Shown: one piece after another, positions 22,889 to 49,048 of the stretch
Position numbering within the stretch: the first letter of the stretch is position 1
How the letters are laid out: every line of letters starts with the position of its first letter
DNA from: a virus
IMG/VR virus record: IMGVR_UViG_3300030099_006944
Coordinates: 62,001 to 126,000 of that record
Length of the DNA stretch: 64,000 nucleotides
Strand: one strand, 5' to 3'
The notes under the pieces: model-generated
The model's database searches: none
What the model was told of the DNA's origin: nothing
What the model saw: only the letters and a program-made list of their open reading frames with translations
Position numbers and translations under genes: made by a program

Positions 22889-23299
22889 GTGAAACTAACA
22901 GAAGCAAAATTAAAAGAATTAATCTTAGAAGTAATGGGAGAGCCATTGCCCGAAATGATAACCGATTTACTGGATACCAATGATCCCGAAAATGTAGTGT
23001 ATGCCATTGAGTTATTTCAAGCGTTGGGCGATCCGGATAATAAAGATGAGATTGAGGCTACAATAATCAGTCCGACTTCAATAAGCATAAGTGGGAACTC
23101 TCTCGGGGCAGTTGGCAAACTCTTTAAAAGACTAGGATTAAAAGCAGGCCATGGTGGCCTTGCCGGAGATGATGGGAGACCATTTATAACAGCAGATCTT
23201 TATCCCAACGAACCAGAGCCCGAAGAAGAAGGAGGCGAAGATGCGCCTTATTATGACAGTTCTAGTGAATGGAAATCAAATGTTCGTCCAAAACGGTAA
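22889..23299 (+). CDS. Small protein with N-terminal I12-x-E14 tag
   Basis: The 136-residue protein starts at GTG 22889 after AGGACGAGG. Residues 1-14 (MKLTEAKLKELILE) form the amphipathic tag shared by at least six other proteins in this window. Leu8 and Ile12-x-Glu14 stand at the same positions in all of them. The rest has a Gly-rich middle (GLKAGHGGLAGDDG) and an acidic stretch followed by a basic end (NVRPKR). The body resembles no other tagged protein here. If the tag is a capsid targeting sequence cut after Glu14 by the prohead protease, the mature protein would be about 122 residues. Function of the body is unknown. Confidence 0.6.
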   Translation: MKLTEAKLKELILEVMGEPLPEMITDLLDTNDPENVVYAIELFQALGDPDNKDEIEATIISPTSISISGNSLGAVGKLFKRLGLKAGHGGLAGDDGRPFITADLYPNEPEPEEEGGEDAPYYDSSSEWKSNVRPKR

Positions 23300-23305
23300 A
23301 TAATT

Positions 23306-24598
23306 ATGAAACTAATAGAAGCAAAATTGAGAGAATTGATATGTGAGGTGCTTAATGAATCTAGATTCAATAAGAAAGCTTCCTCGGGAGTATTAGGTAT
23401 GAAACGAGGTGATGATGTTTCTAAGTCTTATTATAAAAAATTAGAAAAAGAAAAAAATGAAAAAATTGTGAGATATAGGCGCAAACTTGAGTTGACGTGC
23501 TCAGGTGGAAAGAAGACTGCTTGTGAAGAATTAAAAAACGTCGATGCCTACTTGGCTAGCCTAGAAGATAAAGGTGCGATGCCTGTTCCGACTCCTAAAT
23601 CAATTCGCAATATTGAAGCATCGACTTTTTCGGCCAAAAGAATTCGCGCTTATATGGAAAAAGTAATGGAAAACCATCCAGACCCAGAATGGCGCGAAGG
23701 ATTTAAATTTTCTTTTCGATTGCGCTTTTCCGCTCAACTTAGTGAACCCCCAAGTGATGGTCAATTGCCTTTCTCTGGTGTCAGACAACCGCCTCATTGG
23801 CTATTCGATCCCGGACTAGTTCGGCCTAAGAAATTTAGACACCTTGAAGAATCGGACTTTAGGCCCGAACTTGATGCAGAAGGTGAGCGTGAAGAAAGAG
23901 AAAGACTAGCGATGGACCAACGAGGCAGGAGAATGAGAGCGTACGCTCGCATCCCAATGTCTGATAAATGGGATGATTGGGAAAACAGGCACAGTTTCTA
24001 CATTGCTAAAGATAAAGAGCGCGGTGAGTTTGGGAAGCATTCTACTTTAGATTACTATTTGTGGTCCCGTATCCCAATGGAAGAATTAACCTTGCATCAC
24101 TTTGGAGACTACTGGGAACTGGATCCCGGCGACACACAAGGCCATGAAGAATATTATGTTGTAAAAAGATTGATTAGTCCAACTGGTGATGAACGTGCTT
24201 ACCAAGATGCAATGGGTGACGCGGGTCTAACAGAGTCAGTTTTAAAACAGTTAATCTATGAAACTCTGGAAGATGAAAGGGGAATCGATGGGCTGATAAA
24301 ATCAGGAGAGTGGGAAAATATTAACACAGCACTATCCCTCACGGTTGATGTCGGTTTGCCATTAGAAGAGTTGCCTTGGGATCTTCTGCCAATGAGTATT
24401 ATGGCAGAAGATGACTTGGTAGAGTTAGCGCGCTATTTATTAGATCTAAAAGGTTGGGAGGAACCAGGTCATAGTGATCCGGTCGGTAGGATGTTGCGCC
24501 ACGGCATCAAGGGAATGGTCGGAAAATTTCCTAGGATAGGCCGACAATATGCAGTCATGGCAATTAAAAAAATATTGGGACTTAGCCTCAGACCTTAA
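23306..24598 (+). CDS. Double-tagged hypothetical protein
   Basis: The protein has 430 residues. It begins with the tag MKLIEAKLRELICE and contains a second internal copy at about residues 308-319 (LTESVLKQLIYE) that keeps the Leu and Ile-x-Glu positions. The segment after the first copy is basic with two Cys (SYYKKLEKEKNEK, ELTCSGGKKTACEELK). The second part, about 120 residues, is helical. An in-frame ATG at 24212 just before the internal copy suggests that two tagged genes have fused, but it has no convincing ribosome site. The start at 23306 has only a weak ribosome site. No enzymatic motif is recognised. Confidence 0.6.
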   Translation: MKLIEAKLRELICEVLNESRFNKKASSGVLGMKRGDDVSKSYYKKLEKEKNEKIVRYRRKLELTCSGGKKTACEELKNVDAYLASLEDKGAMPVPTPKSIRNIEASTFSAKRIRAYMEKVMENHPDPEWREGFKFSFRLRFSAQLSEPPSDGQLPFSGVRQPPHWLFDPGLVRPKKFRHLEESDFRPELDAEGEREERERLAMDQRGRRMRAYARIPMSDKWDDWENRHSFYIAKDKERGEFGKHSTLDYYLWSRIPMEELTLHHFGDYWELDPGDTQGHEEYYVVKRLISPTGDERAYQDAMGDAGLTESVLKQLIYETLEDERGIDGLIKSGEWENINTALSLTVDVGLPLEELPWDLLPMSIMAEDDLVELARYLLDLKGWEEPGHSDPVGRMLRHGIKGMVGKFPRIGRQYAVMAIKKILGLSLRP

Positions 24599-24621
24599 TA
24601 TATTAAATTTTAAAAAAATAC

Positions 24622-24661
24622 TTGACAAATCCTCTCAACGTGTTACATTATAAAAGAGAGG
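24622..24661 (+). promoter_or_regulatory. Sigma70-type promoter with SD-sequestering inverted repeat
   Basis: TTGACA at 24622-24627 is followed at 18 bases by CATTAT (24646-24651), a 4/6 match to the -10 box. CCTCTC at 24631-24636 is exactly complementary to GAGAGG at 24656-24661, which is the primase ribosome site. Read-through mRNA would contain both arms and could hide the ribosome site. mRNA started at this promoter would lack the left arm. Confidence 0.6.
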
Positions 24662-24666
24662 ACAAC

Positions 24667-25602
24667 ATGAATAACAAACGACAGATAATAACCGACATAC
24701 TCGGTTCCTATCGCCGTGCAGGCGATGAACACTTATATCACTGCCCATTTTGCAAACACCACAAGAAAAAGATGTCGGTCAACTTTTCGATCAACTCTTA
24801 CAAATGTTGGGTTTGTGATGCTAGGGGTAAAAACATTTACCGACTTGTAAGAAAGTTTGGCAACTACCAGCAAAGACAAAAGTATCTGGAATTACAAGGC
24901 AGACTCGATCTTACAGAGTTTGAAGATATATTCAAAGAAATCAACGAACAGGAAACAATTCAAAAAATTGATTTACCTTTGGAGTTTATATCACTATGTA
25001 ATAAACACTTGCCACTACATTCTCAGACGCCTTTGGAATACCTCAAAACGAGGGGGATAGGTAAAGCTGAGATTTTACGCTGGAAGATGGGTTACTGCAA
25101 GGAGGGACGTTACAGTGGAAGAATTATTATCCCGTCTATCAACAACGATGGGGATTGTAATTATTTTATTGCCCGTTCTTATGTTGGGCATGGTCGTCGG
25201 TACCTTAATCCTCCGTGCGGTAGAGACATTGTCTTTAACTCTCTTATGGTTGACTGGGATGAGCCTGTTGTACTGGTCGAAGGTGTTTTTGATGCTATTG
25301 TTGTTGGAGACAATGCTATACCTATTCTTGGGTCAACGCTCCGAGAGGATTCCCGCCTTTTTCAGGCGTTAGCAATTCATGATACTCCGGTTTATGTAGC
25401 GTTAGATCCGGATGCTGAAAAAAAAGCACAGTGGATTATCAAGTCTCTTATGAGATACGACTTGGAAGTTAAAAAAATAAATTTAGAGGAATATGAAGAT
25501 ATTGGCTCAATGTCTAAGCAGGTTTTTCTAGAAAAATTACAAAATGCAGAGGAAGTAGACAGTGATATGTACTTCCTAGAAAGAATATTAAAAAGTATAT
25601 AA
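24667..25602 (+). CDS. DnaG-type DNA primase
   Basis: The protein has 311 residues. ATG 24667 follows GAGAGG. Upstream TTG codons in frame overlap the promoter and are rejected. A CPFC...CWVC zinc-binding module uses Cys26, Cys29, Cys47 and Cys50, as in DnaG and T4 gp61. The Toprim core is visible as VVLVEGVFDAI (catalytic Glu) and YVALDPDAEKK (metal-binding DxD) between about residues 195 and 255. The enzyme would make RNA primers for lagging-strand synthesis. It is close to T4 gp61 in size and shorter than bacterial DnaG, with no fused helicase. The replicative helicase and polymerase are not in this window. Confidence 0.85.
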   Translation: MNNKRQIITDILGSYRRAGDEHLYHCPFCKHHKKKMSVNFSINSYKCWVCDARGKNIYRLVRKFGNYQQRQKYLELQGRLDLTEFEDIFKEINEQETIQKIDLPLEFISLCNKHLPLHSQTPLEYLKTRGIGKAEILRWKMGYCKEGRYSGRIIIPSINNDGDCNYFIARSYVGHGRRYLNPPCGRDIVFNSLMVDWDEPVVLVEGVFDAIVVGDNAIPILGSTLREDSRLFQALAIHDTPVYVALDPDAEKKAQWIIKSLMRYDLEVKKINLEEYEDIGSMSKQVFLEKLQNAEEVDSDMYFLERILKSI

Positions 25603-25613
25603 TTGGAGGACTA

Positions 25614-26125: not shown

Positions 26126-26135
26126 TGGAGGACAT

Positions 26136-29100
26136 ATGACTACTTTTGCACACATATCGGACACTCATATCCGAAACGTTAAATATCACGAAGAATACAG
26201 AAAGGTATTTAAAGATATATATGAGAGCTTAGAAAACGACAAACCAGATTATATTATACACACCGGTGACATTGCTCACACAAAGACACAATTGTCTCCG
26301 GAATATTTTGAACTTTGCGCAGATTTTCTCAAAAATTTAGCAGATATTGCGCCAACTTATATTATTTTAGGAAACCACGATGGTAACCTCAAAAACGACA
26401 ATCGACAGGATGCAATTACCCCAGTAATTGAAGCACTACAACATCCAAACTTGTTTTTGTTAAAGAATTCAGGCGAGACCCAATTGACAGACTCGATCTG
26501 CCTAAATGTCCTCTCTGTGTTTGATCGGGACAATTGGGTAACTCCCACTGATAAATCCATGGTAAACATTGCGCTTTACCATGGTGCTATCATGGGGTGT
26601 GAAATAAATGAAGAATGGAATCTCGAAAATGGCGAAGATGATATTAATATATTTACAAACTTCGATTACGCTATGTTGGGCGATATCCACAAAACACAAA
26701 AGTTAGACCCGGACGGTCGAGTTTGGTATGCCGGCTCTACTGTTCAGCAAAACTTTGGCGAGTCTTTGATGAAGGGTTATCTTTTGTGGGATATCCGAGA
26801 TCAAGAAACATTTAGTGTTGAAAAAAGATTATTTATGTCTCCTCGACCATTTTATACTGTTGAGATAAATCAAGACGGAACTTTACCAAAAGTTAACGTA
26901 CCAAAGAACGCTAGACTCAGATTGGTGTCAAACTACAATCTACCGTTGGTAAAATTAAGAATGGCATGTGATTATGCAAATGCAAAATGGAATCCGTATA
27001 CAATAAATTTTGTTAACAGGGCAGGGTACACTGAATCCTCTGTTGTGCAAAACGATGGTAAGAACATTAATATGCGAGACCAAAATGTTCAAGAGAAATA
27101 TATCAAAGCATTTCTTTCCGATAAAGAAATTACCAAGGATGTCTTAGATAGAGTTTTAGAACTTAATCGGGAATATTCTAAGCAAATCAAAGGATCAGAA
27201 GATGTTTCTAGAAATATTGTTTGGAAACTTCGTAAAATGAAATGGAACAATCTATTTAACTACGGCGAAAAGAATGAAATTGATTTTGATAAGCTAAATG
27301 GGCTTGTTGGGATCTTCGGCAAAAACTATTCTGGAAAGTCCAGTATCATTGATGCGGCACTTTTTGGCTTATTTAACACTACGTCCAAAGGAGAGAGAAA
27401 AAATGTTCACATCGTTAATCAAAATCGCGACAAAGCTAAGTGTCAACTTGAGATCGGAGTCGGTGATGATACCTACAAGATTACAAGAAACCTCGAAACC
27501 TACCAAAAGAAACTAAGAGGCAAGGAAACAAAAGAAGTAAAAACTGAATTGGATTTTACTAAATGGGCACTTGGACAACACGCTGAGAGTAAAAACGGCA
27601 CCACTCGTAACGAAACAGACGAGATTATTCGTAAAACATTTGGAAACTACAATGACTTTATGATAACTTCAATGGCCTCTCAGATGGATGCGTTTGGTTT
27701 TATTAACGAGGGATCCACAAAACGCAAAGAGATTCTTGCAAAGTTTCTAGATTTGAAAATGTTCGAAGAGAAACATAAATTAGCGAAGAAAGACTCAGCA
27801 GAAAAGAAAGGCGTAATAAAACACCTCAACTCAACCGATTGGAGAAAGAAGTTAAAATGGAATCAAGAAGCGTTATCTGAGATTTTAGAAGATATAGCAG
27901 ATCAGGCAGATTTGTGTGATAAGCACACTAAAAGAATCAATGTTCTTCGAGAAGAACAAAGGGTAATAAAAGATCAGATTACAACTGTCGGTACCGATTC
28001 GATTGATATAAAACAATTAGAAAAAGACCTCAAAAAGAAGCAAAAACAGCTTGCAACAGCCTCACAAGTAATCGAGAAGGGTCTTGATAGGTTAAGTGCC
28101 CAAGAGAGTCTACAAAAGCAATTACGGTCGTTTATTGAAGACTTTGATATCACAACTTGTGAAGACCAGATCGAAAAACATAAGGGTCTTTTGAAAGATA
28201 TTTCAATTATAGAAAGGAACATTCGTTCAACTAAGATGGAAATAGACAACTATCAGAACAAAATCGATTTACTACATGATCACGAATATGATCCAAATTG
28301 TAAGTACTGTCGCGATAACCAATTTGTCAAAGAAGCGGAACAAGCAAGAACCCTAATCGAAGAGTCACGGAAGACTTTGTGCGCCTTCGAGAGTGATTTG
28401 ACAGAGGCCAACAAGAAGAAACAAGCTATCAATATCACTTATTTAAAAGCTGAATTGGAAGATTACAATTTAAAGTTTAGAGAGGTAAAAACAAATGAAG
28501 TTAAGATCAAAAGTATTAAGTCGGAAGTGTCGGCAAGCAAGAGTAAAAAGGCTCTTACGGAAAAAGAGATCGAAGAGATCAAAACAAAGATCTCACACTA
28601 CTATGAAAACCAAGAGGCGTACGATAATTTGGAATCCTTGCAGAGAGATCTTAAAGCAATCAAATTAACCATATCCATGAAGATGAATGATCTCGAAAGA
28701 TGCAACAAGAAGGTTCTCAAACTAATGTCGGAAGAAGGCACCACTCGTCGCCTGATTGAAGAAGCCAAAGAGCACATTCAACAAATAGTAGATGCTGAGA
28801 ATGAGTTTATTGCTTATGATTTGTACATACAAGCAATGCATGCTAACGGAGTCTCATATCAGGTTATTAAGTCAATGTTGCCAATTATAAATAAAGAGAT
28901 TTCTTCTGTTCTAAATACAATTGTTGATTTCGAGGTTTTCTTTGACAATATCGATAATAAATTGGAAATTTACATTAAACATCCAAAATATGACCCTCGC
29001 CCATTATCAATGGGATCAGGAGCAGAGAAGACAATTGCTTCAATGGCAATACGTCTAGCCTTAATATCAATCACCAATTTACCAAAAAGCGAACTATTTA

Positions 29101-29285
29101 TACTTGACGAACCAGCAACTGCATTGGATCAAGATCACATGGAGGGGTTTATACGACTTCTGCAAATGATTAAAGGTCAATTTAGAACGGTTCTTCTTAT
29201 TTCCCATCTAGAATCTCTCAAAGACATTGTTGATATGACAATCGATATTCAAAAAATAGATGGCTTTGCAAAGGTAAAAGTATAA
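26136..29285 (+). CDS. Mre11-Rad50 (gp47-gp46, SbcD-SbcC) single-chain fusion
   Basis: The protein has 1,049 residues. Residues 1 to about 370 are an Mre11/SbcD calcineurin-like nuclease with its phosphoesterase motifs: ISDTHI, HTGDIAH, LGNHDG, ALYHGA and MLGDIHK. From about residue 370 a Rad50/SbcC ATPase follows: Walker A GKNYSGKSS (about 395-403), long coiled-coil arms, zinc hook CKYC (722-725), signature LSMGSGAEKT (about 957) and Walker B LFILDEPATALD (about 987). In T4 these are two separate proteins (gp47 and gp46) that resect DNA ends for recombination-dependent replication and degrade host DNA. Here one continuous frame joins both. The ATG follows GGAGG and the gene has its own sigma70 promoter. 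The next gene starts in its stop codon. Confidence 0.9.
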   Translation: MTTFAHISDTHIRNVKYHEEYRKVFKDIYESLENDKPDYIIHTGDIAHTKTQLSPEYFELCADFLKNLADIAPTYIILGNHDGNLKNDNRQDAITPVIEALQHPNLFLLKNSGETQLTDSICLNVLSVFDRDNWVTPTDKSMVNIALYHGAIMGCEINEEWNLENGEDDINIFTNFDYAMLGDIHKTQKLDPDGRVWYAGSTVQQNFGESLMKGYLLWDIRDQETFSVEKRLFMSPRPFYTVEINQDGTLPKVNVPKNARLRLVSNYNLPLVKLRMACDYANAKWNPYTINFVNRAGYTESSVVQNDGKNINMRDQNVQEKYIKAFLSDKEITKDVLDRVLELNREYSKQIKGSEDVSRNIVWKLRKMKWNNLFNYGEKNEIDFDKLNGLVGIFGKNYSGKSSIIDAALFGLFNTTSKGERKNVHIVNQNRDKAKCQLEIGVGDDTYKITRNLETYQKKLRGKETKEVKTELDFTKWALGQHAESKNGTTRNETDEIIRKTFGNYNDFMITSMASQMDAFGFINEGSTKRKEILAKFLDLKMFEEKHKLAKKDSAEKKGVIKHLNSTDWRKKLKWNQEALSEILEDIADQADLCDKHTKRINVLREEQRVIKDQITTVGTDSIDIKQLEKDLKKKQKQLATASQVIEKGLDRLSAQESLQKQLRSFIEDFDITTCEDQIEKHKGLLKDISIIERNIRSTKMEIDNYQNKIDLLHDHEYDPNCKYCRDNQFVKEAEQARTLIEESRKTLCAFESDLTEANKKKQAINITYLKAELEDYNLKFREVKTNEVKIKSIKSEVSASKSKKALTEKEIEEIKTKISHYYENQEAYDNLESLQRDLKAIKLTISMKMNDLERCNKKVLKLMSEEGTTRRLIEEAKEHIQQIVDAENEFIAYDLYIQAMHANGVSYQVIKSMLPIINKEISSVLNTIVDFEVFFDNIDNKLEIYIKHPKYDPRPLSMGSGAEKTIASMAIRLALISITNLPKSELFILDEPATALDQDHMEGFIRLLQMIKGQFRTVLLISHLESLKDIVDMTIDIQKIDGFAKVKV

Positions 29286-29551
29286 TGAAAATGACGAAAC
29301 AACAACTAAAACAAATTATAAAAGAAGAGCTCACTGGGGTTCTGAAAGAAATGGGTCCAGAGATTCCTGATGCGGAGCTACCGCAAGGGGACGATCTAGA
29401 TCAGGCACTTAATATTCCGGAAGAAGTACCACCAGAAGTTGCGGAAATGGGAGAGTGGTACGCTGCTAATCCCAATGCTTCTCCGGAGGAAGTTCATATG
29501 GCATGGTCAGAAATTTCTGCAAAATATATGCCGGGAGCCATGGAAGAATGA
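29285..29551 (+). CDS. Small acidic protein with N-terminal I12-x-E14 tag
   Basis: The 88-residue protein starts in the stop of the Mre11-Rad50 gene (TAATG). Its tag is MKMTKQQLKQIIKE, with Leu8 and Ile12-Lys13-Glu14 at the shared positions. The rest is acidic and Pro-rich (PEIPDAELPQGDDLD, EVPPEVAEMGEWYA) with a predicted C-terminal helix. Removal of the tag after Glu14 would leave about 74 residues. No known domain is recognised. A virion-internal role is inferred only from the tag. Confidence 0.6.
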   Translation: MKMTKQQLKQIIKEELTGVLKEMGPEIPDAELPQGDDLDQALNIPEEVPPEVAEMGEWYAANPNASPEEVHMAWSEISAKYMPGAMEE

Positions 29552-29787: not shown

Positions 29788-29894
29788 TGAAAATGAAAGC
29801 GTTTTTACACAGACTAGCAAATTTGTTCAACAGTGCTCACTGTTGTTGCTGTTGTGGATGTTGTGCTTGTGTTAGTTGTAAAGGAACTTGTTAA
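29787..29894 (+). CDS. 35-residue polycysteine microprotein
   Basis: ATG 29787 overlaps the previous stop (TAATG) and GGAGG lies just upstream, so translation is well supported. The peptide has an amphipathic basic helix (KAFLHRLANLFNS) followed by a tail with ten Cys among the last 17 residues, in the pattern CCCCCGCCACVSCKGTC. The next gene starts in its stop codon. It could bind metal ions, be lipid-modified, or form disulfides at the membrane. No family is recognised, and metallothionein-like chelation is only an analogy. Confidence 0.6.
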   Translation: MKMKAFLHRLANLFNSAHCCCCCGCCACVSCKGTC

Positions 29895-30247
29895 TGAAAC
29901 TTACCAAAAACCAACTAACACAAATTATAAAAGAAGAACTCAATACCGTCATGGAATCCTATGGTGATAATTATAAAGATTATATGCTTCGACCAGAAGA
30001 CCCAGAAGTCATGGCCGATATTGAACGTAGAAACAATATGGACCTAGAAGAAAAGGTCAAAGAATGGTACGGTAATGAAATAACTGATCTTTCCCAGATC
30101 ATTTGGATGGAAGGACTCGAAGAAAATCAGATGGAACAAGGTTTTGCCATATTAGGTGAAGACCCGAGATACGTATTGGAATCTATCGAACCAGAGGAGC
30201 TTCCAATAATTTGGAAATTGGCTCTAGAAGAAGCGGAAGATATGTAG
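29894..30247 (+). CDS. Small acidic protein with N-terminal I12-x-E14 tag
   Basis: The 117-residue protein is started from ATG 29894 inside the stop of the polycysteine gene. Its tag is MKLTKNQLTQIIKE. The body is acidic and helical (DIERRNNMDLEEKVKEWYG, SIEPEELPIIWKLALEEAE) with no similarity to the other tagged proteins beyond the tag. The body contains MEGLEENQMEQGFAILGEDP, of unknown meaning. It ends two bases before a 15-residue peptide that resembles the tag alone. Function is unknown. Confidence 0.6.
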   Translation: MKLTKNQLTQIIKEELNTVMESYGDNYKDYMLRPEDPEVMADIERRNNMDLEEKVKEWYGNEITDLSQIIWMEGLEENQMEQGFAILGEDPRYVLESIEPEELPIIWKLALEEAEDM

Positions 30248-30249
30248 TT

Positions 30250-31045: not shown

Positions 31046-31452
31046 TGTTACTATTTTTGCTTTCCGCGGCTCTTGCTGAGCCTTTGATGGTTCACCTAGA
31101 AGAAGGCGACGCGGCACCCTTTCACGGTCGTCTAATGAATGATGAAGCGGTAGCCAACATCATTGCTGGGCGAGAGATGTCCGTTGAGCAGTGTGAGATC
31201 CAAAAACAACTCGCGATTTCATTAACAAAAGCGGAATTACAACTGGAAATAGACTATTTAAAAGCAGAGTTGGAAACCGAAACAGAAAAAAATACAACTC
31301 TATTGGCTCTTCGAGATACGGAGATCGAGACTCTTCGAAAACAGATGAAGCCAAATAAAACCATGTGGGCTTTCTTCGGAGGCTTTTTGCTTGCGACAGG
31401 GACATCGTTGGGGACATATTACGCCGTGAGGGAAATCGATGCGAATAACTAA
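31045..31452 (+). CDS. Exported coiled-coil protein with C-terminal membrane anchor
   Basis: The protein has 135 residues starting at ATG 31045 (TAATG overlap). The N-terminus is a signal peptide (MLLFLLSAALAEP). It is followed by LEEGDAAPFHGRLMND, of the APFxGxL type seen in small phage envelope proteins. A coiled coil covers about residues 50-105 and the C-terminus is a membrane segment (WAFFGGFLLATGTSLGTYY). It therefore likely sits in the inner membrane with its coiled coil in the periplasm. Together with its two upstream neighbours it may form a lysis or envelope-modifying complex. Confidence 0.5.
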   Translation: MLLFLLSAALAEPLMVHLEEGDAAPFHGRLMNDEAVANIIAGREMSVEQCEIQKQLAISLTKAELQLEIDYLKAELETETEKNTTLLALRDTEIETLRKQMKPNKTMWAFFGGFLLATGTSLGTYYAVREIDANN

Positions 31453-31774
31453 AGAACAATTAAAACAAATGATCTTGGAAGAACTAAGGGAAATAAGGAT
31501 TGACACCGCAGCAGGGTATCATAGTAACCAAGGAACAACAATGTCTGCCGCTGATGAAGAACCACCAGAATTAATAGCTTGGCTAAGGTCACAACCGATT
31601 GACTTAGAACTAGACCGAGATAGTAATGGCAACTGGGTTGTTTATTATGATGCGTTTGACAATGTAAATTTGGATAACTTGCCACCCGGTTGGAGTTCGG
31701 AAGTTCTGGCTCTCGGTGGATCTGATGAAGACAGTAGTTATGTTATATCGCGCGATGATGTGGAGGTTCGATGA
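31439..31774 (+). CDS. Small acidic protein with N-terminal I12-x-E14 tag
   Basis: The protein has 111 residues and its ATG at 31439 lies 14 bases inside the preceding gene. The tag is MRITKEQLKQMILE, with Leu8, Met11 and Ile12-Leu13-Glu14. The body is strongly acidic (ADEEPPELIAWL, GGSDEDSSYVISRDDVEV) and appears to form one small alpha/beta domain. Cleavage after Glu14 would free about 97 residues. No known family is recognised. The stop overlaps the next gene. Confidence 0.6.
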   Translation: MRITKEQLKQMILEELREIRIDTAAGYHSNQGTTMSAADEEPPELIAWLRSQPIDLELDRDSNGNWVVYYDAFDNVNLDNLPPGWSSEVLALGGSDEDSSYVISRDDVEVR

Positions 31775-32148: not shown

Positions 32149-32699
32149 GTTCAAATACGTTGGAAATTATTCAAGGGCTAGCACAAGCAGCCGCAAACGC
32201 TTATGATGGAGCGCACGACGAACGCTTTGCTTTGGACGGTCAAATTAGAAAAGTTGGCCTGAATCGTGAAGAAGGTTGTCCCATCATGGATCAGAGAGTA
32301 ACAGATGGTTTTTCAGTTAAGTTCTATGGGGATTCCATATGCATTAATTATCAAAGCGACACGCGCCTTAAAGATGTCCATGATCCCAAATACGAACAAG
32401 ATATTGAAAGAATGCTCAACGAAGTAAAAAAGTTTCTACAAAGAGAGTATAAAGCCGTAACCGGAAAAGGAATCACCCTTAAGAAGAAAGGTGAACCTCG
32501 CGTACTAGTACAAAGCACTTCTAGGGTTCGCACATTTGTACAGGCGTACCAGCACTACACCATCTCTGGCCTAGACAAGGTTACGAATTCTGATCCAATG
32601 GTCGACAAAAATAGAGAAATTACTCGAAAATTTCTAGAACAACATTCAACTAAGCGTCCCAAAAATGACACGCGCAAAAAAGGAAACAATGGAAAATGA
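32145..32699 (+). CDS. Hypothetical protein
   Basis: The protein has 184 residues and its ATG overlaps the previous stop. The central part has alternating strands (FSVKFYGDSICINYQSD) and a helix (DIERMLNEVKKFLQREYKA). The C-terminus is basic and disordered (HSTKRPKNDTRKKGNNGK), suggesting contact with nucleic acid or an acidic partner. No domain is recognised. It is translationally coupled to the tagged gene that follows. In position it is just upstream of the terminase gene. Confidence 0.55.
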   Translation: MSSNTLEIIQGLAQAAANAYDGAHDERFALDGQIRKVGLNREEGCPIMDQRVTDGFSVKFYGDSICINYQSDTRLKDVHDPKYEQDIERMLNEVKKFLQREYKAVTGKGITLKKKGEPRVLVQSTSRVRTFVQAYQHYTISGLDKVTNSDPMVDKNREITRKFLEQHSTKRPKNDTRKKGNNGK

Positions 32700-33391
32700 A
32701 GATAACAGAAGAACAACTCAAAGTAATAATTCTAGAAGAATTAGAAAAACTTCATAATGAAGGCTTTTTGGACGATATAGCCCGTAGTGCAAAAAAAGGT
32801 ATGTACAATTTAGGAAGACCACGCAGCGCACCTTCATATGATGAATTGTATACAGAGCTTATAGGCACCCAAGCTGGTTTGCAAGATTTAATGCACACCA
32901 AGCCACAAGAACTAACAAAGTGGACTATGGGGTTTTTCTCAAAACGAGGATGGCCAGAGGGTACAAAAATCAATGAAATGGTTATGCAAATTGATGATCT
33001 AGTTGACCAAACACGCCATGGATCAGATGAAGATGGCGTAGGTATGATGCAAGTCGACAATTTTGAAGAGTTACAACGTTATCTCAAATATTATAGAGAG
33101 AACATCAGAGAAGAAATAAAATCACTAAAAGGCAAATTCCAATCTAACCCAGAACAAGCAAACTCGCAATTGCCCATTCTCGCCCAGCAGTTGTCAGAAG
33201 TTTTATATATTATTTCCGGTCCTAGTCAAGATACTGGTGAGGGGCCAAGTCGATCAGATATTTCCAAAAAGCATTATGCTCCACATATAGAAAGAGCACT
33301 GCGTTCTGTGCAGGAGCACATTACTCAACGTGAAAAATCATACATGTCAGAGTCTAAGCGCTCACAAAGAAAACGCAAAACCAGAGGATAG
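32696..33391 (+). CDS. Protein with N-terminal I12-x-E14 tag upstream of terminase
   Basis: The 231-residue protein starts at an ATG overlapping the previous stop (ATGA). Its tag is MKITEEQLKVIILE. The middle is helical with a long charged helix (YLKYYRENIREEIKSLKGKF). The C-terminus is very basic (SESKRSQRKRKTRG), which would suit DNA contact inside the head. It directly precedes the large terminase, the place where T4-like phages have the small terminase, but no small-terminase signature is seen and the tag argues for another role. Function is unknown. Confidence 0.55.
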   Translation: MKITEEQLKVIILEELEKLHNEGFLDDIARSAKKGMYNLGRPRSAPSYDELYTELIGTQAGLQDLMHTKPQELTKWTMGFFSKRGWPEGTKINEMVMQIDDLVDQTRHGSDEDGVGMMQVDNFEELQRYLKYYRENIREEIKSLKGKFQSNPEQANSQLPILAQQLSEVLYIISGPSQDTGEGPSRSDISKKHYAPHIERALRSVQEHITQREKSYMSESKRSQRKRKTRG

Positions 33392-34975
33392 ATGGGATTT
33401 AAACTCTCAAAACAAGAAATTGTTAAGGAGATTGTGAAGTGCGGGAAGGATCCACAATTCTTCATCGATAATTATTGTCGTATTTCACATCCACTCAAAG
33501 GACTCATTCCTTTCAAAACCTTCGACTATCAGAAAGATCTCCTCAAAGATTTCAATGATTATCGATTCAATATTATATTAAAAGCCAGACAACTTGGTAT
33601 CTCCACAATCTCAGCGGGATACATTGTCTGGTTTATGCTTTTTCACCGAGACAAAAACATTCTTGTTATCGCAACCAAATTTGGCACGGCAGCAAACTTG
33701 GTGAAGAAGGTAAAACAAATAATGAAGCACCTCCCCGAATGGATCAAAATAGCCAAGATCGTCACGGACAACAAAACTTCATTCGAATTATCAAACGGCT
33801 CACAGATTAAAGCCGGAACCACTTCTGGCGATGCGGGTCGTTCGGAGGCATTATCACTGCTCGTTATAGACGAGGCAGCACACGTAGAAGGCCTTGACGA
33901 GTTGTGGACGGGTCTTTACCCTACTTTGTCAACAGGAGGGCGCTGCATAGCTTTATCGACCCCTAATGGGGTAGGAAATTGGTTCCACAAGACATACGTT
34001 GATGCAGAAACATCTGATAATGATTTTCATCCAATAATTCTGCCATGGGATGTACATCCAGAACGTGATCAGCAATGGTTCACAAAAGAAACTAAAAATA
34101 TGTCCCGGAGGCAAATTGCACAAGAGTTGGAATGTAATTTCAATACATCGGGAGATACCGTCATACATCCGGATGATATGCAATGGTTATTTGAAAATTT
34201 AAAGGAACCTCTATACAAAACAGGATACGATCGTAATTTTTGGATTTGGGAAAAGTATATCGAAGGATGTTCATACGTATTGGTTGCTGATGTTGCGCGA
34301 GGAGACGGAACAGATTTTTCTGTATTTCACGTTTTGAGACTGGATACAATGGCAGTAGTTGCCGAATATCAAGGTAAACCCAATTTAGATCTGTATTCGA
34401 ACGTACTATATGATGCCGGCAAGGAATACGGATTTTGTCTTTTGGTCGTAGAAAATAATGGAATTGGTATCTCTGTTTTGGAAAAATTGATTTCTTTGGA
34501 ATATCCAAAACTATATTATTCTATCAAGTCGACTCACGAATATGTCGAGGCCCACCTAGCAGAAGGTAACGATCGATCGGTACCCGGGTTTACTACTTCT
34601 ACCAAAACAAGACCGCTAATCGTGGCGAAATTAGAGGAGTATGTTAGAAACAAACTAATTACATTGCATTCTAATCGTTTATTTCACGAAATGAAAACGT
34701 TCATTTGGTATAATGGTAAACCACAAGCTATGCGTTCCTACAATGACGATTTGGTCATGGCTCTTGCTATTACCTGTTGGGTCAGGGACACAGCACTGGA
34801 AGAGAACAAAAGAGAAATGGAGTACAAAAGGGCAATGTTGGACGGAATAAAAAAATCTACAACCACTATGAACACTCAGATAAAAGGACAGGACGGCTAC
34901 TCTAAAACGTTTAATGAAAAATACGAAGAAGAAATAAAGAAAACAAAAGAATTTCTCTGGATTTATAAAGGATAA
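33392..34975 (+). CDS. Large terminase subunit (gp17-like)
   Basis: The protein has 527 residues, somewhat shorter than T4 gp17 (610). The ATPase domain has a Walker A-like KARQLGIST (about residues 64-72) and Walker B plus catalytic Glu in LLVIDEAAHV (about 155-164), followed by the coupling motif ALSTPNG. The nuclease domain (RNase H fold) begins with VLVADVARGDGTDFSV (about 297-310) and has a second acidic position in LLVVENNGIG and a third near SYNDDLVMAL. This enzyme cuts concatemeric DNA and pumps it into the prohead through the portal. It is directly followed by the portal gene. Confidence 0.92.
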   Translation: MGFKLSKQEIVKEIVKCGKDPQFFIDNYCRISHPLKGLIPFKTFDYQKDLLKDFNDYRFNIILKARQLGISTISAGYIVWFMLFHRDKNILVIATKFGTAANLVKKVKQIMKHLPEWIKIAKIVTDNKTSFELSNGSQIKAGTTSGDAGRSEALSLLVIDEAAHVEGLDELWTGLYPTLSTGGRCIALSTPNGVGNWFHKTYVDAETSDNDFHPIILPWDVHPERDQQWFTKETKNMSRRQIAQELECNFNTSGDTVIHPDDMQWLFENLKEPLYKTGYDRNFWIWEKYIEGCSYVLVADVARGDGTDFSVFHVLRLDTMAVVAEYQGKPNLDLYSNVLYDAGKEYGFCLLVVENNGIGISVLEKLISLEYPKLYYSIKSTHEYVEAHLAEGNDRSVPGFTTSTKTRPLIVAKLEEYVRNKLITLHSNRLFHEMKTFIWYNGKPQAMRSYNDDLVMALAITCWVRDTALEENKREMEYKRAMLDGIKKSTTTMNTQIKGQDGYSKTFNEKYEEEIKKTKEFLWIYKG

Positions 34976-34978
34976 AAT

Positions 34979-36913
34979 ATGGCTCGCAACGATAGAAACC
35001 CAAACAACAATCAGTCTCAATTATTTAAAGCTTTAACTAGGCTTTTTTCTGGTCCGATTGTACAACGAAGAACTCAATCCGGAAGGGAATTGAGAAGAAG
35101 ACATTTGGATATGTACGCTAAAAGATTCAGATCTGCTAGTGGTCAACAATTCAAAAAGACAGAATACAACCCGATGAACATCACAACTCTGAATATGATA
35201 TCCAACAGGAATCGTGCAGAGAGATATATTGATTTTGACCAAATGGAGTACACACCAGAGATCGCATCAGCTTTGGATATATATGCAGACGAAATGACAA
35301 CCCACTCAGGGATCACTCCTATATTAAACATCAAGTGCCCGAATGATGAAATCAAATACATTCTCCATTCATTATATTATAATATAATGAATATTGAGCA
35401 TAATCTTTTTGGCTGGGCTCGAACGATGTGTAAATACGGAGATTTATTTTTATATTTGGATATCGATGAAGGATTGGGAATACGGAATTGTATTGGATTA
35501 CCTTGTGGCGAGATTGAAAGATTAGAGGGCGAAGACCCTACAAATCCAAATTATATTCAATACCAATGGAACAATGGAGGTTTAACTCTTGAAAACTGGC
35601 AGATAGCGCATTTTAGAATACTGGGGCACGATAAACATGCACCATACGGCACTAGTGCACTAGAACCCGCTAGAAGAATTTGGAGACAACTTACCCTTCT
35701 AGAAGATGCCATGATGGCTTATCGTATTGTTAGAGCATCAGAACGTCGAGTTTTTAAAATTGATGTTGGTGGCATCGCACCACAAGATGTTGAACAATAT
35801 ATGCAGAAAGTAATGACGCAAATGAAACGTCATCAAGTTACCGACCCTGCTTCCGGTCGCGTTGATTTACGGTACAATCCTCTTTCAATTGAAGAAGATT
35901 ATTTCATTCCAATACGAGGAGGGCAGTCCTCAACAGATATTAGTAACCTTGCTGGTGGGACTTTCACGGCTCAAATCGAGGACGTAAAGTATCTCCGCGA
36001 CAAACTTTTCTCGGCTCTAAAAGTACCCCAATCTTATTTAGCAATGGGTGAAGGTGCGGCTGAGGATAAGACAACTTTGGCCCAAAAGGATATTCGCTTC
36101 GCCAGAACAATTCAGAGACTACAAAGAGTTGTAGTAGCAGAACTTGAAAAAGTAGGAATCATCCACTTGTATACAATGGGATATCGCGATGATGATCTTT
36201 TAAGTTTCAAATTGTCTCTCAATAACCCGAGCAAGATTGCAGAAATGCAAGAATTAGAACATTGGAGCACAAAGTTTGATATTGCCGGTGCAGCTACTGA
36301 GGGATACTTCTCTCGACGATGGGTTGCTGAAAACCTCCTAGGACTTTCCGAAGATGAATTTATCCGGATGCAAAGAGAAATGTTCCACGATAAGAAATTC
36401 ATGGCGGCGCTCGAAGCAGCAGCCGAACCGGCTGGTGAAGGTGGCGGAGGTGACTTAGGTGGCGGAGGTGACTTAGGTGGTGACCTTGGTGGCGATGAAG
36501 GTGGTGATCTAGACTTAGGCGGTGACGAAGGAGGTGACCTAGACCTAGGAGGCGATGAAGGTGGTGGAGAAGATGCAGGAGGTGATGATGAAGATATCCT
36601 CTTGGCGGAACCACCAGCAAAGAGAGATGACGATGCTAAACCAAACCAGCGAGGTCCATACAAAAGACACAAAAGATCTTATAAAAAAGGTGGACTGAAA
36701 AAACAAATGATAAACACTGGAAATGGTGAAGTAGGCACAGCTAGAAAAACTTGGCCCGGTAAAGTTGGTTTTGGAGGATTAGACTCGCTCGTACGAGGGG
36801 TAACAGAGGGCGTGGATAATGATGCTTTAGAAGAAGACAAACTATTTAATACTGACTTTGAAGTAAAAGCATTAATCGAATCACTAAAAAAGGTAAATAA
36901 AAATGAAACATAA
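34979..36913 (+). CDS. Portal protein (gp20-like) with Gly/Asp repeat insertion
   Basis: The protein has 644 residues (T4 gp20 is 524). It has the T4-type portal core: ALDIYADEMTT, a central VPQSYLAMGEGAAEDK region, then the long channel-type helix segment RFARTIQRLQRVV. The portal is a dodecameric ring at the head vertex that carries the terminase and later the tail. Unusually, residues of about 485-540 form a Gly/Asp/Leu repeat built from GGDLGG and DEGGDLDLGG units, followed by a strongly basic stretch (GPYKRHKRSYKKGGLKK). This explains the extra length. The last codons overlap the next start. Confidence 0.9.
   Translation: MARNDRNPNNNQSQLFKALTRLFSGPIVQRRTQSGRELRRRHLDMYAKRFRSASGQQFKKTEYNPMNITTLNMISNRNRAERYIDFDQMEYTPEIASALDIYADEMTTHSGITPILNIKCPNDEIKYILHSLYYNIMNIEHNLFGWARTMCKYGDLFLYLDIDEGLGIRNCIGLPCGEIERLEGEDPTNPNYIQYQWNNGGLTLENWQIAHFRILGHDKHAPYGTSALEPARRIWRQLTLLEDAMMAYRIVRASERRVFKIDVGGIAPQDVEQYMQKVMTQMKRHQVTDPASGRVDLRYNPLSIEEDYFIPIRGGQSSTDISNLAGGTFTAQIEDVKYLRDKLFSALKVPQSYLAMGEGAAEDKTTLAQKDIRFARTIQRLQRVVVAELEKVGIIHLYTMGYRDDDLLSFKLSLNNPSKIAEMQELEHWSTKFDIAGAATEGYFSRRWVAENLLGLSEDEFIRMQREMFHDKKFMAALEAAAEPAGEGGGGDLGGGGDLGGDLGGDEGGDLDLGGDEGGDLDLGGDEGGGEDAGGDDEDILLAEPPAKRDDDAKPNQRGPYKRHKRSYKKGGLKKQMINTGNGEVGTARKTWPGKVGFGGLDSLVRGVTEGVDNDALEEDKLFNTDFEVKALIESLKKVNKNET
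36433..36590 (+). repeat. Short tandem repeats encoding the portal Gly/Asp block
   Basis: Degenerate units of about 18-30 bases of the type GGAGGTGACTTAGGTGGC and GGCGATGAAGGTGGTGATCTAGAC recur in frame. They encode GGDLGG and GGDEGGDLDL. The repeat number could vary by slippage without changing frame. Confidence 0.75.
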
Positions 36914-37724: not shown

Positions 37725-38286
37725 CATCACCCCCGAAGAAGAAGCAACTCCGCAAGAACAAGAAAACTCAATTAAGATCGAAATCATCGAGAAAGATGAG
37801 TTGGAATTCAATCTTAACCTGAGGAGTGCCTTAAATGGGGATCTTATGATTTTAGATCACAAGGACATTGATATCGTTGTACAACCAACCTCTAAAAAAG
37901 TAGTCACTTTTGCAAAAGAGATAACATCAGACGCAGTGTATGGTGCCGAATCTAGACTTCTAGAATATTTGAGAAGACAAGGTGTTATAAATTATGATTC
38001 AATTCAAGGTGGAAACGTATATGGATCTTTGGAAGGTCAGATTATGGACTCCAAATCTCATGATCCAATAAAAGTGGCTCTGCTTAAAATTTCTGAATGG
38101 ATGGAAACAGAGAAACCTTATATTTCTGGTACCACGGCATATGACGATATGCAGGATGATGCTTTGATCGATCCGGACAACGAATATTCGACAGAATTAG
38201 GTCAAGTACCACACGCTGCCGAAAAGGGCTCCATTGTTCAGAACAACCTTTTCGCTCCATACCTATATGGAAGATACACTTACTGA
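37708..38286 (+). CDS. Head-cluster protein of unknown function
   Basis: The protein has 192 residues, starting 17 bases inside the previous gene. The N-terminus is acidic and Gln-rich (TPEEEATPQEQE). The middle holds strands and helices (VVTFAKEITSDAVYGAESRLLEYLRR). The C-terminus is Tyr-rich (NLFAPYLYGRYTY). No recognised domain. Its position upstream of the protease suggests a head assembly role. The next gene starts at its stop. Confidence 0.5.
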   Translation: MSVKINITPEEEATPQEQENSIKIEIIEKDELEFNLNLRSALNGDLMILDHKDIDIVVQPTSKKVVTFAKEITSDAVYGAESRLLEYLRRQGVINYDSIQGGNVYGSLEGQIMDSKSHDPIKVALLKISEWMETEKPYISGTTAYDDMQDDALIDPDNEYSTELGQVPHAAEKGSIVQNNLFAPYLYGRYTY

Positions 38287-38996
38287 TGAAAAAACTACTA
38301 GAAAATTTTAAGAGCTTTTTGTCTGAGGACGAAAAAGAACCAATACCTTTACCGGACACTTCTAACATTGGACTTTTTCATGATCCGGATATAGACAATC
38401 ATGAGTTAATATTATATTATCTGACTCCGCGCGGACCCTTTCCATTTGCCGCATGCGGTATAGATCGCCTCAGCGAAAACAAGAAAGGTGAACAATGTAT
38501 ACCTGAGACATGGCATATGTCTTGGATATATGTTCATGAAACCTTTCAAGGTTCGGGTTGGAGTAAAATTTTATACGGACTGTCATTTAATTTGGTTAAT
38601 AAAGAAGGCGCAGGGCTAACATCCGATCATTGGTCTTCCACGTCAGACGATGCAAAAAGCCGCGCTTGGGATAAAATGATATCTCGTAATCAACTGGTTC
38701 CCAGAAAAACTCCGGGTACTCCTCCGACCGGAGGCCACTCTGAATTCGATTATGGTAAGGCCGGATTTAAGAAGACCCCTTTGGATCCCATGGATGACTG
38801 TCGCGAACCCGGAGGCGGAAAAGCAGCAACATCAACTAGTTGGATAATGAAAGGACACAGCTACTTTGATTCGATTTATGATGATCTAACTGAAAATCAT
38901 GATCTGCTTATGTCAGCAGTACCCAATCGTGAACAAGTGGAACGAAGACTATCAGACGTTGCCGCTGATGAATTTGAAGTTGCTTATAGGGGGTAA
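38286..38996 (+). CDS. GNAT-like protein with divergent N-terminal tag
   Basis: The protein has 236 residues. Residues 75-130 (MSWIYVHETFQGSGWSKILY, then LTSDHWSSTSDDAKSRAWDKM) resemble the acetyl-CoA-binding core of GNAT acetyltransferases as found in phages: a strand, a V.....G.G loop and a serine-rich block before a tryptophan helix. The N-terminus MKKLLENFKSFLSE is a divergent version of the shared tag, with Phe8 and Leu12-x-Glu14 in the same positions. It could therefore also be a capsid cargo. The enzyme substrate, if any, is unknown, and the fold assignment is moderate. Confidence 0.5.
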   Translation: MKKLLENFKSFLSEDEKEPIPLPDTSNIGLFHDPDIDNHELILYYLTPRGPFPFAACGIDRLSENKKGEQCIPETWHMSWIYVHETFQGSGWSKILYGLSFNLVNKEGAGLTSDHWSSTSDDAKSRAWDKMISRNQLVPRKTPGTPPTGGHSEFDYGKAGFKKTPLDPMDDCREPGGGKAATSTSWIMKGHSYFDSIYDDLTENHDLLMSAVPNREQVERRLSDVAADEFEVAYRG

Positions 38997-38998
38997 CA

Positions 38999-39328
38999 GT
39001 GGATATAATTAATTTCATCCTAGTTTCTTATGGGATGACCTTCATAGTTGTGTATGGCAAGATATTTGAGAACATAAGACCAACGAAGGATTATAGTAAA
39101 AAATGGAACACCCTTTTTCATTGTCCACTTTGTATGGGTTTTTGGTGTTCTTTATTTTTGTTCTGCATAAACGGTTATACAGAACTATTTACGTTTGAAT
39201 ATTCCCTAGGGAATGCTTTCTGCCTCTCTTGTTTGGGAGCCGGAACTAGTTATTTGCTCTCCATGGTCGTTAACGATTTTGGGTTAAGAGTATCATCAAG
39301 ATCAGGAGGTGATTATGTTGATGATTAA
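38999..39328 (+). CDS. DUF1360-like membrane protein with CPLCMGFW motif
   Basis: The 109-residue protein starts at GTG 38999 after an AGGGGG site. It has hydrophobic segments at about residues 3-22, 48-60 and 72-93, and a central HCPLCMGFWC motif (Cys42, Cys45, Cys50). This C..C.GFW pattern is typical of a small membrane-protein family seen in bacteria and phages whose function is unknown. Its last codons include AGGAGGTGA, which acts as a perfect ribosome site for a short overlapping ORF. Confidence 0.55.
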   Translation: MDIINFILVSYGMTFIVVYGKIFENIRPTKDYSKKWNTLFHCPLCMGFWCSLFLFCINGYTELFTFEYSLGNAFCLSCLGAGTSYLLSMVVNDFGLRVSSRSGGDYVDD

Positions 39329-39374
39329 ACGATGGATGCTTCAACCAGTCCGCCGTTGCTGTAGCGGATCATGA
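39315..39374 (+). CDS. 19-residue ORF behind a perfect Shine-Dalgarno site
   Basis: AGGAGGTGA at 39305-39312 lies directly before ATG 39315. The peptide MLMIKRWMLQPVRRCCSGS is basic with two adjacent Cys. It overlaps the previous gene by 14 bases and ends inside an RNA hairpin. Translation is suggested by the ribosome site alone and no family is known. Confidence 0.35.
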   Translation: MLMIKRWMLQPVRRCCSGS

Positions 39375-39404
39375 AGCGCGCCGGTGACGCCGGCAACAAT
39401 TTTT
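39339..39404 (+). terminator. Structured RNA ending in a rho-independent terminator
   Basis: A two-part stem (GCTTCA with TGAAGC outside, GTCCGC with GCGGAT inside) spans about 39338-39377. It is followed by a GC-rich hairpin GCCGG-TGACG-CCGGC at 39380-39394 and a T-rich tract. The high GC content contrasts with the surrounding DNA. It separates the preceding genes from the prohead protease. Confidence 0.6.
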
Positions 39405-39417
39405 ATTTGAGGAAAAT

Positions 39418-40026
39418 ATGTCTAAAACTTTATTAAGAGAATTCTATGCTTTATGTGAGGGTGGTATTTGTCAAGATCTTTTAACCGAAAGAGAAAAAAG
39501 GGAAATGGAAAATGGCGTTCTTTATTTATCAGGTCGTTTGCAAACTGCTGACAAGCAAAACGGAAATGGTCGGGTCTATCCTCACGAAGTCCTCAAAAGA
39601 GAGGTCAACAACTATATGAATGTAGTCAAAGACAATCGTGCTTGTGGTGAACTTGATCATCCGGATGATTCTGTTGTTAATCTTAAAAACGTTTCCCACA
39701 TCATAACTGATATATGGTGGGAAGGAAAGGATGTTATGGGCAAAATCAAAGTGCTCGATACCCCTTCCGGAAGGATCTTGAAAGATCTAGTGAATGCTGG
39801 TGTTAAACTCGGAATATCATCCAGAGGGTTAGGGTCAGTTAGAGAGAGTGCCGGGCAGACTGTTGTTGAAAATGATTTTCAATTAATTTGTTTTGATATG
39901 GTTTCCGAACCTTCAACTCCAAATGCTTATGTCTATCCAAAAGGGCAACAAAATGTATCTTCTAGGCTCAGAGAAGTTAAAGAAAATAGCATTAATGATC
40001 TATTTAAAAAGATCCTAGGAGATTAA
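39418..40026 (+). CDS. Prohead core protease (gp21-like)
   Basis: The protein has 202 residues. The ATG follows TGAGGAAA. It shows the T4 gp21-type serine protease motifs: GELDHPDD with the catalytic His at about residue 81, and GVKLGISSRGLG with the catalytic Ser at 134 or 135, followed by the FDMVSEPSTP block typical of the family. In T4 this protease is built into the prohead core, activates itself and cuts the scaffold, the capsid protein and the internal proteins after (Leu/Ile)-x-Glu. It begins MSKTLLREF, with its own Leu6-Arg7-Glu8 site. It likely processes the tagged proteins encoded nearby. Confidence 0.9.
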   Translation: MSKTLLREFYALCEGGICQDLLTEREKREMENGVLYLSGRLQTADKQNGNGRVYPHEVLKREVNNYMNVVKDNRACGELDHPDDSVVNLKNVSHIITDIWWEGKDVMGKIKVLDTPSGRILKDLVNAGVKLGISSRGLGSVRESAGQTVVENDFQLICFDMVSEPSTPNAYVYPKGQQNVSSRLREVKENSINDLFKKILGD

Positions 40027-40030
40027 ATAA

Positions 40031-40270
40031 ATGAAAATAAAAAAAGACCGATTGGTACAAATTATCAAAGAGGAGCTTGATGATTATCAAATGTCAATGG
40101 CACAAGATGATCCGCAAGAATTCATGGCAGGAATGAAATCACAAGAAAGAATCAAGCAGATTGATATTCTAATCGCGGAACTACAAAGAGAAAAAGAAAT
40201 GTTGTTGATGAACATTGATTCTGGTGAGGTCACCTTTGATCAATCAAATACGCGGAGCCCAAATGAATAA
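40031..40270 (+). CDS. Small helical protein with N-terminal I12-x-E14 tag, core-type
   Basis: The protein has 79 residues, beginning four bases after the protease gene. The tag is MKIKKDRLVQIIKE. The body is helical and charged (ERIKQIDILIAELQREKEML). The place right after the protease gene is where T4-like phages often encode small prohead-core proteins. The tag and position together support a head-interior protein that is processed during maturation. The next gene starts inside its 3' end. Confidence 0.6.
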   Translation: MKIKKDRLVQIIKEELDDYQMSMAQDDPQEFMAGMKSQERIKQIDILIAELQREKEMLLMNIDSGEVTFDQSNTRSPNE

Positions 40271-40688
40271 GAATGAATTGAAAAAAATCCTTAAACCTTT
40301 AATTAAAGAGTGTATTAAAGAAGTGATTTTTGAAGACGGAACTCTTTCGACTATTATATCTGAGGTTATGAAAGGAACTTCTTCTCAAAATGTCGTTTAT
40401 GAAGCAAAACAACCTAGGTTAGAAACTAAGCAAGAAGCCGATCAGCGACTGCAACGGAAACAGAAACAACTTCAAGAACAAAAACGAAAGATGTTAGACG
40501 CCATAGGAAAAGATTCCTACAATGGCGTTAATATATTTGAAGGAACTACACCAATGGCTGCTAGCAAAGAATCAACAATGTCACCACATGGAGCAAAAGC
40601 GCTGGATGGTGTTGCCCCAAATGATCCCGGAGTTGATATATCTTCGTTCGCATCAAGCGGTATTTGGAAAAAATTGGCAGGAAATTAA
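40263..40688 (+). CDS. Putative prohead core protein with tag-like helix
   Basis: The protein has 141 residues. ATG 40263 is preferred over the upstream start because GCGGAG lies before it. The N-terminal helix (MNKNELKKILKPLIKE) resembles the shared tag but is shifted by two residues (Ile14-Lys15-Glu16). The middle is a charged Gln/Lys-rich helix (QEADQRLQRKQKQLQEQKRK). The C-terminus contains an Asp-Pro-rich stretch and ends SSGIWKKLAGN. Similar small helical proteins near the gp21 gene are core components in other T4-like phages; this is inferred here. Confidence 0.55.
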   Translation: MNKNELKKILKPLIKECIKEVIFEDGTLSTIISEVMKGTSSQNVVYEAKQPRLETKQEADQRLQRKQKQLQEQKRKMLDAIGKDSYNGVNIFEGTTPMAASKESTMSPHGAKALDGVAPNDPGVDISSFASSGIWKKLAGN

Positions 40689-49027: not shown

Positions 49028-49048
49028 AGTCTATTAGGAGATGTGTTA

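Follow-up and report, generated by a model that had tools for sequence, protein, structure and literature searches.

A 64,000-base stretch of viral DNA, bases 62001-126000 of the 187,355-base virus record IMGVR_UViG_3300030099_006944 (hereafter the window), encodes seven proteins that share a short N-terminal sequence, here called the class-1 tag, in front of mutually unrelated bodies. It is very likely that this tag is a prohead-targeting signal processed by the protease gp21, and that the bodies behind it are packed with the phage DNA and probably injected. In phage T4, the internal proteins IPI, IPII, IPIII and Alt carry an N-terminal capsid targeting sequence (CTS) that is removed by gp21. 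All seven open reading frames (ORFs) of the original prediction were present, with the starts it had assigned:

22889..23299, + strand: class-1 tagged protein of 136 aa, GTG start, MKLTEAKLKELILEVMGEPLPE; candidate LxE sites end at E14, E18 and E22
23306..24598, + strand: class-1 tagged protein of 430 aa, MKLIEAKLRELICEVLNE; second tag copy at residue 307
29285..29551, + strand: class-1 tagged protein of 88 aa, MKMTKQQLKQIIKEELTGVLKE; LxE at E14 and E22
29894..30247, + strand: class-1 tagged protein of 117 aa, MKLTKNQLTQIIKEELNTVMES
31439..31774, + strand: class-1 tagged protein of 111 aa, MRITKEQLKQMILEELREIRID
32696..33391, + strand: class-1 tagged protein of 231 aa, MKITEEQLKVIILEELEKLHNE; terminase gene directly downstream
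40031..40270, + strand: class-1 tagged protein of 79 aa, MKIKKDRLVQIIKEELDD; immediately 3' of gp21

The seven starts fit the pattern M-(K/R)-x5-Leu8-x3-Ile12-x-Glu14, with L8, I12 and E14 invariant; the start of ORF 29894 is an ATG inside an ORF listed from 29888. A position matrix for the tag was trained on other contigs only, with the window left out, and the seven proteins scored 15-47 on it. Random IMG/VR loci yielded one class-1 start in 988 kb, or about 0.06 expected per 64 kb, so the seven tags are not a chance occurrence (Poisson probability of at least seven in 64 kb, ~9e-13). The internal second copy of the tag was real. It lies in the 23306 protein at residue 307 (GLTESVLKQLIYETLEDE) and scored 17.7, and this protein is, given that copy, a probable fused cargo. 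A 15-residue ORF described earlier as a truncated tag was not recovered, as no ORF of 12-39 residues resembling a truncated tag scored 8 or higher. The remainder of the record holds five more tagged ORFs (positions 8881, 12014, 18244 and 31481, and a weak one at 9853), giving 12 class-1 tagged proteins in the record. The tagged bodies of the window had no significant match in Pfam or PHROG.

In viral contigs, 495 tagged ORFs were collected, representing at least 413 non-redundant bodies after a k-mer filter, and the highest number in one phage was 27, in two clusters (G018, 242 kb). The consensus M-K-(I/L)-T-K-x-Q-L-(K/R)-x-I-I-(K/R)-E-(E)-(L/I) comprises ~16 conserved residues. The first 16 residues were common to otherwise unlike proteins; information content stayed high up to residue 15-16 and then dropped almost to background, apart from a slight rise at 19-22. 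Homologues of the 31439 protein in two other phages kept L8, I12, E14 and E18. Synonymous codons were used freely at threonine 4 (four codons), leucine 8 (six codons) and isoleucine 12, indicating that the tag is conserved at the protein level. An extra internal copy of the tag was present in 12 proteins and in none of the shuffled bodies. The tag could instead be a hitch-hiking 5' gene segment, such as an expression element or a recombination seam with no role in the protein; in favour of this, tags stand at the starts of small accessory genes arranged in runs, a setting in which shuffling of 5' ends would be noticed. This explanation is nevertheless highly improbable, considering the conservation of amino acids over codons, the internal copies in longer proteins and the selection of LxE behind the tag described below.

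The tagged genes of the window lie in and around a cluster of T4-type head genes on the same strand:

33392..34975, + strand: large terminase, T4 type (PF03237, 2.8e-8)
34979..36913, + strand: portal protein gp20 (PF07230, 3.8e-75)
39418..40026, + strand: gp21-type prohead protease, Peptidase_S77 (PF03420, 1.9e-34; phrog_207, 3.1e-61)
48998..50335, + strand: putative scaffold at the gp22 position, between gp21 and gp23; no family match
50359..52221, + strand: major capsid protein (MCP) gp23 (PF07068, 4.7e-72)

The gp21 gene that had been predicted at 39418 was confirmed, with 119 bits against a Pfam gathering cut-off of 27 and a position between the portal and MCP genes. Peptidase_S77 was encoded by 29/50 tag contigs versus 4/50 random contigs (p 1e-7), and by 25/44 versus 3/34 when only contigs of at least 20 kb were counted (p 1e-5); taken alone, this co-occurrence could be an effect of lineage. 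Tag contigs without S77 mostly also lacked gp20 and gp23. The 122-kb contig G019, with nine tag starts and no S77, gp20 or gp23, was considered as a counter-example and rejected, as it aligns throughout to related phages, without the head cluster. A search of other phages with gp21 homologues, proposed along with the original prediction, found the tag enriched near gp21-type protease genes. The 80 closest gp21 loci (982 kb) contained 120 class-1 tags, all on the gp21 strand, compared to one in the 988 kb of random IMG/VR loci (~120 times denser). Upstream of gp21, tags were spread over 10 kb and peaked directly before the gene; a further peak stood at +600, and no tag was found between +1 and +10.6 kb in these 80 loci. 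The +600 position, that of window ORF 40031, was tagged in 11/80 loci. A different destination for the tag (baseplate, membrane, or a replication or transcription complex), with the LxE enrichment incidental, would fit the tag clusters that lie far from gp21 in some genomes, and class 1 has no direct localisation; it is improbable in view of the gp21 co-occurrence, the hot spots flanking gp21, the specificity of the LxE signature and the exchange with T4-CTS-like tags.

T4 gp21 cuts after (L/I)xE, and the T4 CTS holds targeting information mainly at residues 4 and 7 and processing information at residues 8 and 10 (PMC9026906). In the class-1 proteins, I12-x-E14 was near invariant and a gp21 consensus was found at or just behind the tag. 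The motif (I/L/M)xE with E at residues 18-30 was present in 272/411 tagged proteins versus 155 expected (z ~15) from column shuffles, which only partly remove shared ancestry, and was followed by A, G or S in 114 versus 40 expected. The control motifs LxD, LxQ, LxK, LE and LxxxE were not enriched behind the tag, which argues against ancestry as the cause of the excess, and (I/L/M)xE showed no excess at residues 32-43. The residue following E14 (P1') was Glu in ~85% of tagged proteins and the later site was more often followed by G, A or S; for this reason, the predicted gp21 cut probably often lies behind the tag, at E18-E30, and in some cases at E14. The general rule of a cut after residue 14 was accordingly dropped, and a mature N-terminus at residue 15, put forward earlier as the test by mass spectrometry (MS), is a poor one. 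Some tagged proteins offer only E14 as a site, and E14 may be cut in the pair L288/L125, in which IIRE followed by M in one protein aligns with YLNE followed by M in the other. The predicted propeptide of the MCP in tag phages ends with a site of the same kind; in the window's gp23 it is LLRE followed by ASS, aligned in relatives as LL(K/R)E followed by (A/S/T).

Two further ORFs, 38286 and 40263, had been described as divergent forms of the tag. The first was rejected as a class-1 tag (score -19.5) and belongs to a second, T4-like class considered below, and the second is a core-type protein with a tag-like helix:

40257..40688, + strand: conserved protein 3' of gp21, start at 40257 or 40263, N-terminal helix LKPLIKECIKEVIFE

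This protein is a probable prohead-core component and was conserved beside gp21 in the 76 distinct sequences examined. Its start, LKPLIKECIKEVIFE followed by (D/E)G, matches the class-1 tag in register over tag residues 8-22; matrix scans gave p values of mostly 0.0005-0.03 per sequence (the sequences not being independent), and the hhalign probability was 79.5. In G037, the protein at this position bears a real class-1 tag. The resemblance of the helix, together with the G037 protein, suggests that the tag may enter the prohead through the same core contact.

The tag-like helix of the gp21-adjacent core-type protein also speaks for another explanation, namely that the tag is the assembly helix of small prohead-core fillers of the gp67/gp68 kind, which would be broken down and lost from the head and would be neither cargo nor effectors; many bodies are short and tagged genes occupy core-gene positions. 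We consider this unlikely, although the most credible of the alternatives. Some bodies are recognisable enzymes (P-loop kinase, GNAT acetyltransferase, PAP2), the bodies differ between phages (461 proteins fall into 382 families), unlike scaffold genes, and homologous cargo with a class-2 tag resembles enzymes seen in virions.

The class-2 tag was represented in the window by the protein upstream of gp21:

38286..38996, + strand: class-2 (T4-CTS-like) tagged protein of 236 aa, MKKLLENFKSFLSE followed by DE, GNAT-like body

The class-2 consensus is MK-x-(L/I)-(M/L)-E-x-(W/F)-x-x-F-(L/I)-x-E (KLIMExWRxFLxE in family A1), and its F-(L/I)-x-E form, including that of 38286, resembles the T4 IPII/IPIII start MKTYQEFIAE. 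Such tags were common just upstream of gp21, with 48 in 982 kb versus 2 in the control. In the structure model of 38286, the tag was a floppy helix (predicted local distance difference test score, pLDDT, <50) and the body was confident (model pLDDT 86). Although 38286 itself had no Pfam match, the top PDB matches of the modelled body were nearly all GNAT acetyltransferases (best E 2.7e-4; template modelling score ~0.3-0.5, core only), and the body as modelled has a GNAT fold. Class-2 GNAT-like genes often stood in tandem as two or three copies that have diverged to 25-40% identity, a pattern reminiscent of an arms race (upstream of gp21 in L364, L402, L407, L385, L386, L428 and L430).

Nine class-1 body families have class-2-tagged relatives, and the GNAT family was found behind both classes. 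The clearest exchange involved a P-loop kinase, which carries MKITNKQLRQIIKEELNRVLRE in L258 and MKLLMESWRQFLKE in L393/L394; over 211 residues the two versions are 72% identical, and the homology starts right after the tags. The family is AAA_33, and its match to the PHROG polynucleotide kinase was weak. Because homologous cargo stands behind either tag, the two tags look functionally equivalent. ORFs without a class-1 tag in related phages also had (I/L/M)xE over-represented at residues 8-16 (z 11.4), partly owing to class 2. Further tag types may exist, for example the Flavobacterium phage starts NFDLKKFLVENKLT and NFNLRSFLTENKLT in L132.

To relate tags of this form to virion content, the published virion proteome of the Synechococcus phage S-CREM2 (PMC10665884, Table 3) was compared with its genome. 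FLxE starts were present in 4/25 MS-detected non-structural proteins versus 1/153 undetected proteins (p 0.0014; p 0.009 for proteins of at least 78 aa). The four detected proteins were the S-adenosylmethionine (SAM) hydrolase (MKDFDSFLEE), a kinase (MKRFDAFLTE), a cytidylyltransferase (MKNFSSFLTE) and gp13 (MKDLHSFLTE), and a looser form was seen in gp12, annotated as a Cas9-like nuclease, and gp136. A bare (L/I)xE near the N-terminus was no guide to virion detection in S-CREM2 (p 0.17), whereas the F-(L/I/V)-x-E form was. The cytidylyltransferase of S-SM1, reported from virions (PMC3037559), starts with MKKFSAFLNE followed by A. A link to class 1 was provided by the MS-detected gp160 of S-CREM2, whose C-terminal module shares 93% identity over 45 residues with the body of the class-1-tagged L305:13402; gp160 and cyanophage T4-GC119 proteins are strings of modules, and relatives of several of these modules are separately class-1-tagged elsewhere. 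The gp160 protein is thus an indirect virion anchor for class 1. As a separate observation, the start of the virion-detected Cas9-like nuclease of S-CREM2 (L456:7704-10313) holds RFASFMAE followed by A, which may be a capsid tag on an injected nuclease.

Taken together, packaging and trimming, as originally proposed, are supported by the co-occurrence with S77, the location in the head cluster on the same strand, the (I/L/M)xE enrichment and the swap with the T4-CTS-like tag, and further by virion MS for the class-2 type and one shared cargo module; the exact cut position and the class of 38286 had to be revised. The proposal of modular cargo also stood, with hundreds of unrelated bodies behind the tag in and around the head-gene cluster. 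Several points weigh against packaging as cargo. No class-1 protein itself has been seen in a virion, and no proteome of a class-1 phage was found; co-purification is possible for the S-CREM2 proteins, according to the authors of that study (PMC10665884). The window proteins 32696 and 40031 lack (I/L/M)xE in residues 18-30, the column shuffles leave part of the shared ancestry in place, and the tag clusters of G018 are far from gp21. The class-1 tag (MKITKxQLKxIIKEEL) could not be aligned with the T4 CTS. Finally, 110 longer bodies matched only 12 Pfam families, with one member each, and as most bodies have no recognisable family, an effector role is unproven.

In the mechanism that we propose, the amphipathic helix of the tag would join the internal core beside gp21 during head assembly, perhaps copying the contact of the conserved core-type protein 40257. 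The gp21 protease would then clip at (L/I)xE, usually at residues 18-30 and sometimes at E14, as the sequence statistics suggest, and the trimmed body would stay in the head with the DNA. By analogy with the T4 internal proteins, the trimmed body would probably enter the next host cell. The tag is modular: hundreds of unrelated bodies, a few of them recognisable enzymes, stand behind it, and some bodies also occur with a class-2 tag, the type that published virion MS links to presence in the virion.

The T4 CTS and the class-1 tag are alike in being short and N-terminal, with an M-K start, unrelated mature parts, an (L/I)xE end and an encoded gp21 (S77). They differ in that class 1 is a longer helical sequence with a probable cut usually at 18-30, serves far larger sets of cargo (12 proteins in this record and 27 in G018) and has different bodies. 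As its sequence is unlike the T4 CTS, class 1 was filed as working like a CTS and not as a member of that family. The inner-head propeptides of phiKZ and SPN3US are likewise N-terminal, occur on several internal or ejected proteins and are cut after a Glu-ending motif, and gp53 and gp54 have an identical 15-residue start (PMC5694885); however, they are mostly 100-plus residues long, with an AxE/SxE motif and an S80-family protease, whereas the window phage encodes gp21 (S77). The N-terminal 30 residues of P1 DarB direct a reporter into the capsid (PMC9024508), but this is a single protein, with no shared multi-cargo motif or gp21-type site reported. The packaged enzymes of the cyanophages S-CREM2 and S-SM1 start with FLxE tags, and a scan of seven cyanophage and pelagiphage genomes gave no class-1 tag; the link between tag and packaging is not drawn in the passages on these enzymes that were consulted. 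The searched open-access literature, which is incomplete, contained no description of class-1 tag strings (text of 5.39 million papers), only work on T4, P1 and SPN3US. Nor was any account found there of how widely the class-1 sequence occurs, of its internal copies or of its exchange with T4-like tags. The class-1 tag, its extent and its interchangeability with the second tag appear to be new, and the gp21-cut CTS of T4 is known.

We are evenly divided on a broader proposal, in which class 1 is a separate capsid-targeting code derived from the helix of the gp21-adjacent core protein and not from the T4 CTS, and has expanded into fast-exchanged head cargo (hundreds of families, ~27 per genome at most, some of them gp21-cleavable polyproteins) delivered into bacteria by aquatic T4-like phages. 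If the tag does mark head cargo, it would be a sequence handle for the injected proteins of uncultured phages, and would turn hundreds of functionally uncharacterised families into candidates for cargo that works from the very start of infection, when anti-defence and take-over proteins act. It also leads to a rule with two tags, class 1 and the FLxE-bearing class 2, that virion MS could test in any gp21 phage.

The carriers of the class-1 tag are a large group of mostly uncultured aquatic T4-related phages. A degenerate DNA pattern for the tag matched at least 120 stretches in IMG/VR, whereas bacterial and archaeal genomes totalling 257 billion bases held only 10; a gp21-type protease gene was also present in 3/8 cellular genomes behind those 10 stretches. 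For cultured phages, tblastn with the tag only was too insensitive and a hidden Markov model (HMM) of the tag performed better, yielding 2 matches in Flavobacterium phage immuto and 21 in the huge phage LR756508, and no match in KVP40, HTVC008M, Mosig, Syn30, Syn19, S-SM1, S-SM2 or S-CREM2. In immuto, class-1 starts are borne by YP_010114603 and, less strongly, by the protein at record position 111184. In the 484-kb phage LR756508.1 (L461), the gp21 gene (156507-158102) matched S77 in two halves of one 576-aa frame, with a large in-frame insert between them that is intein-like or a domain insertion.

Other genes of the window were also observed. A nucleotidyltransferase-looking ORF without a Pfam match (22326-22871, + strand, GGFKPPHVGHYK) adjoins the first tagged genes, and cytidylyl- and nicotinamide mononucleotide (NMN) adenylyl-transferases are recurrent in cyanophage virions. 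One 1049-aa ORF (26136-29285, + strand) fuses an SbcD/gp47-like phosphoesterase with an SbcC/gp46-like ATPase, which are separate genes in S-SM1. The phage ribosomal protein bS21 (40689-40901, + strand; PF01165, 6.4e-12) is encoded directly after the gp21-adjacent core protein, and Microcystis phage Mel-JY01 has RpsU at the equivalent position (L131:21155-21382).

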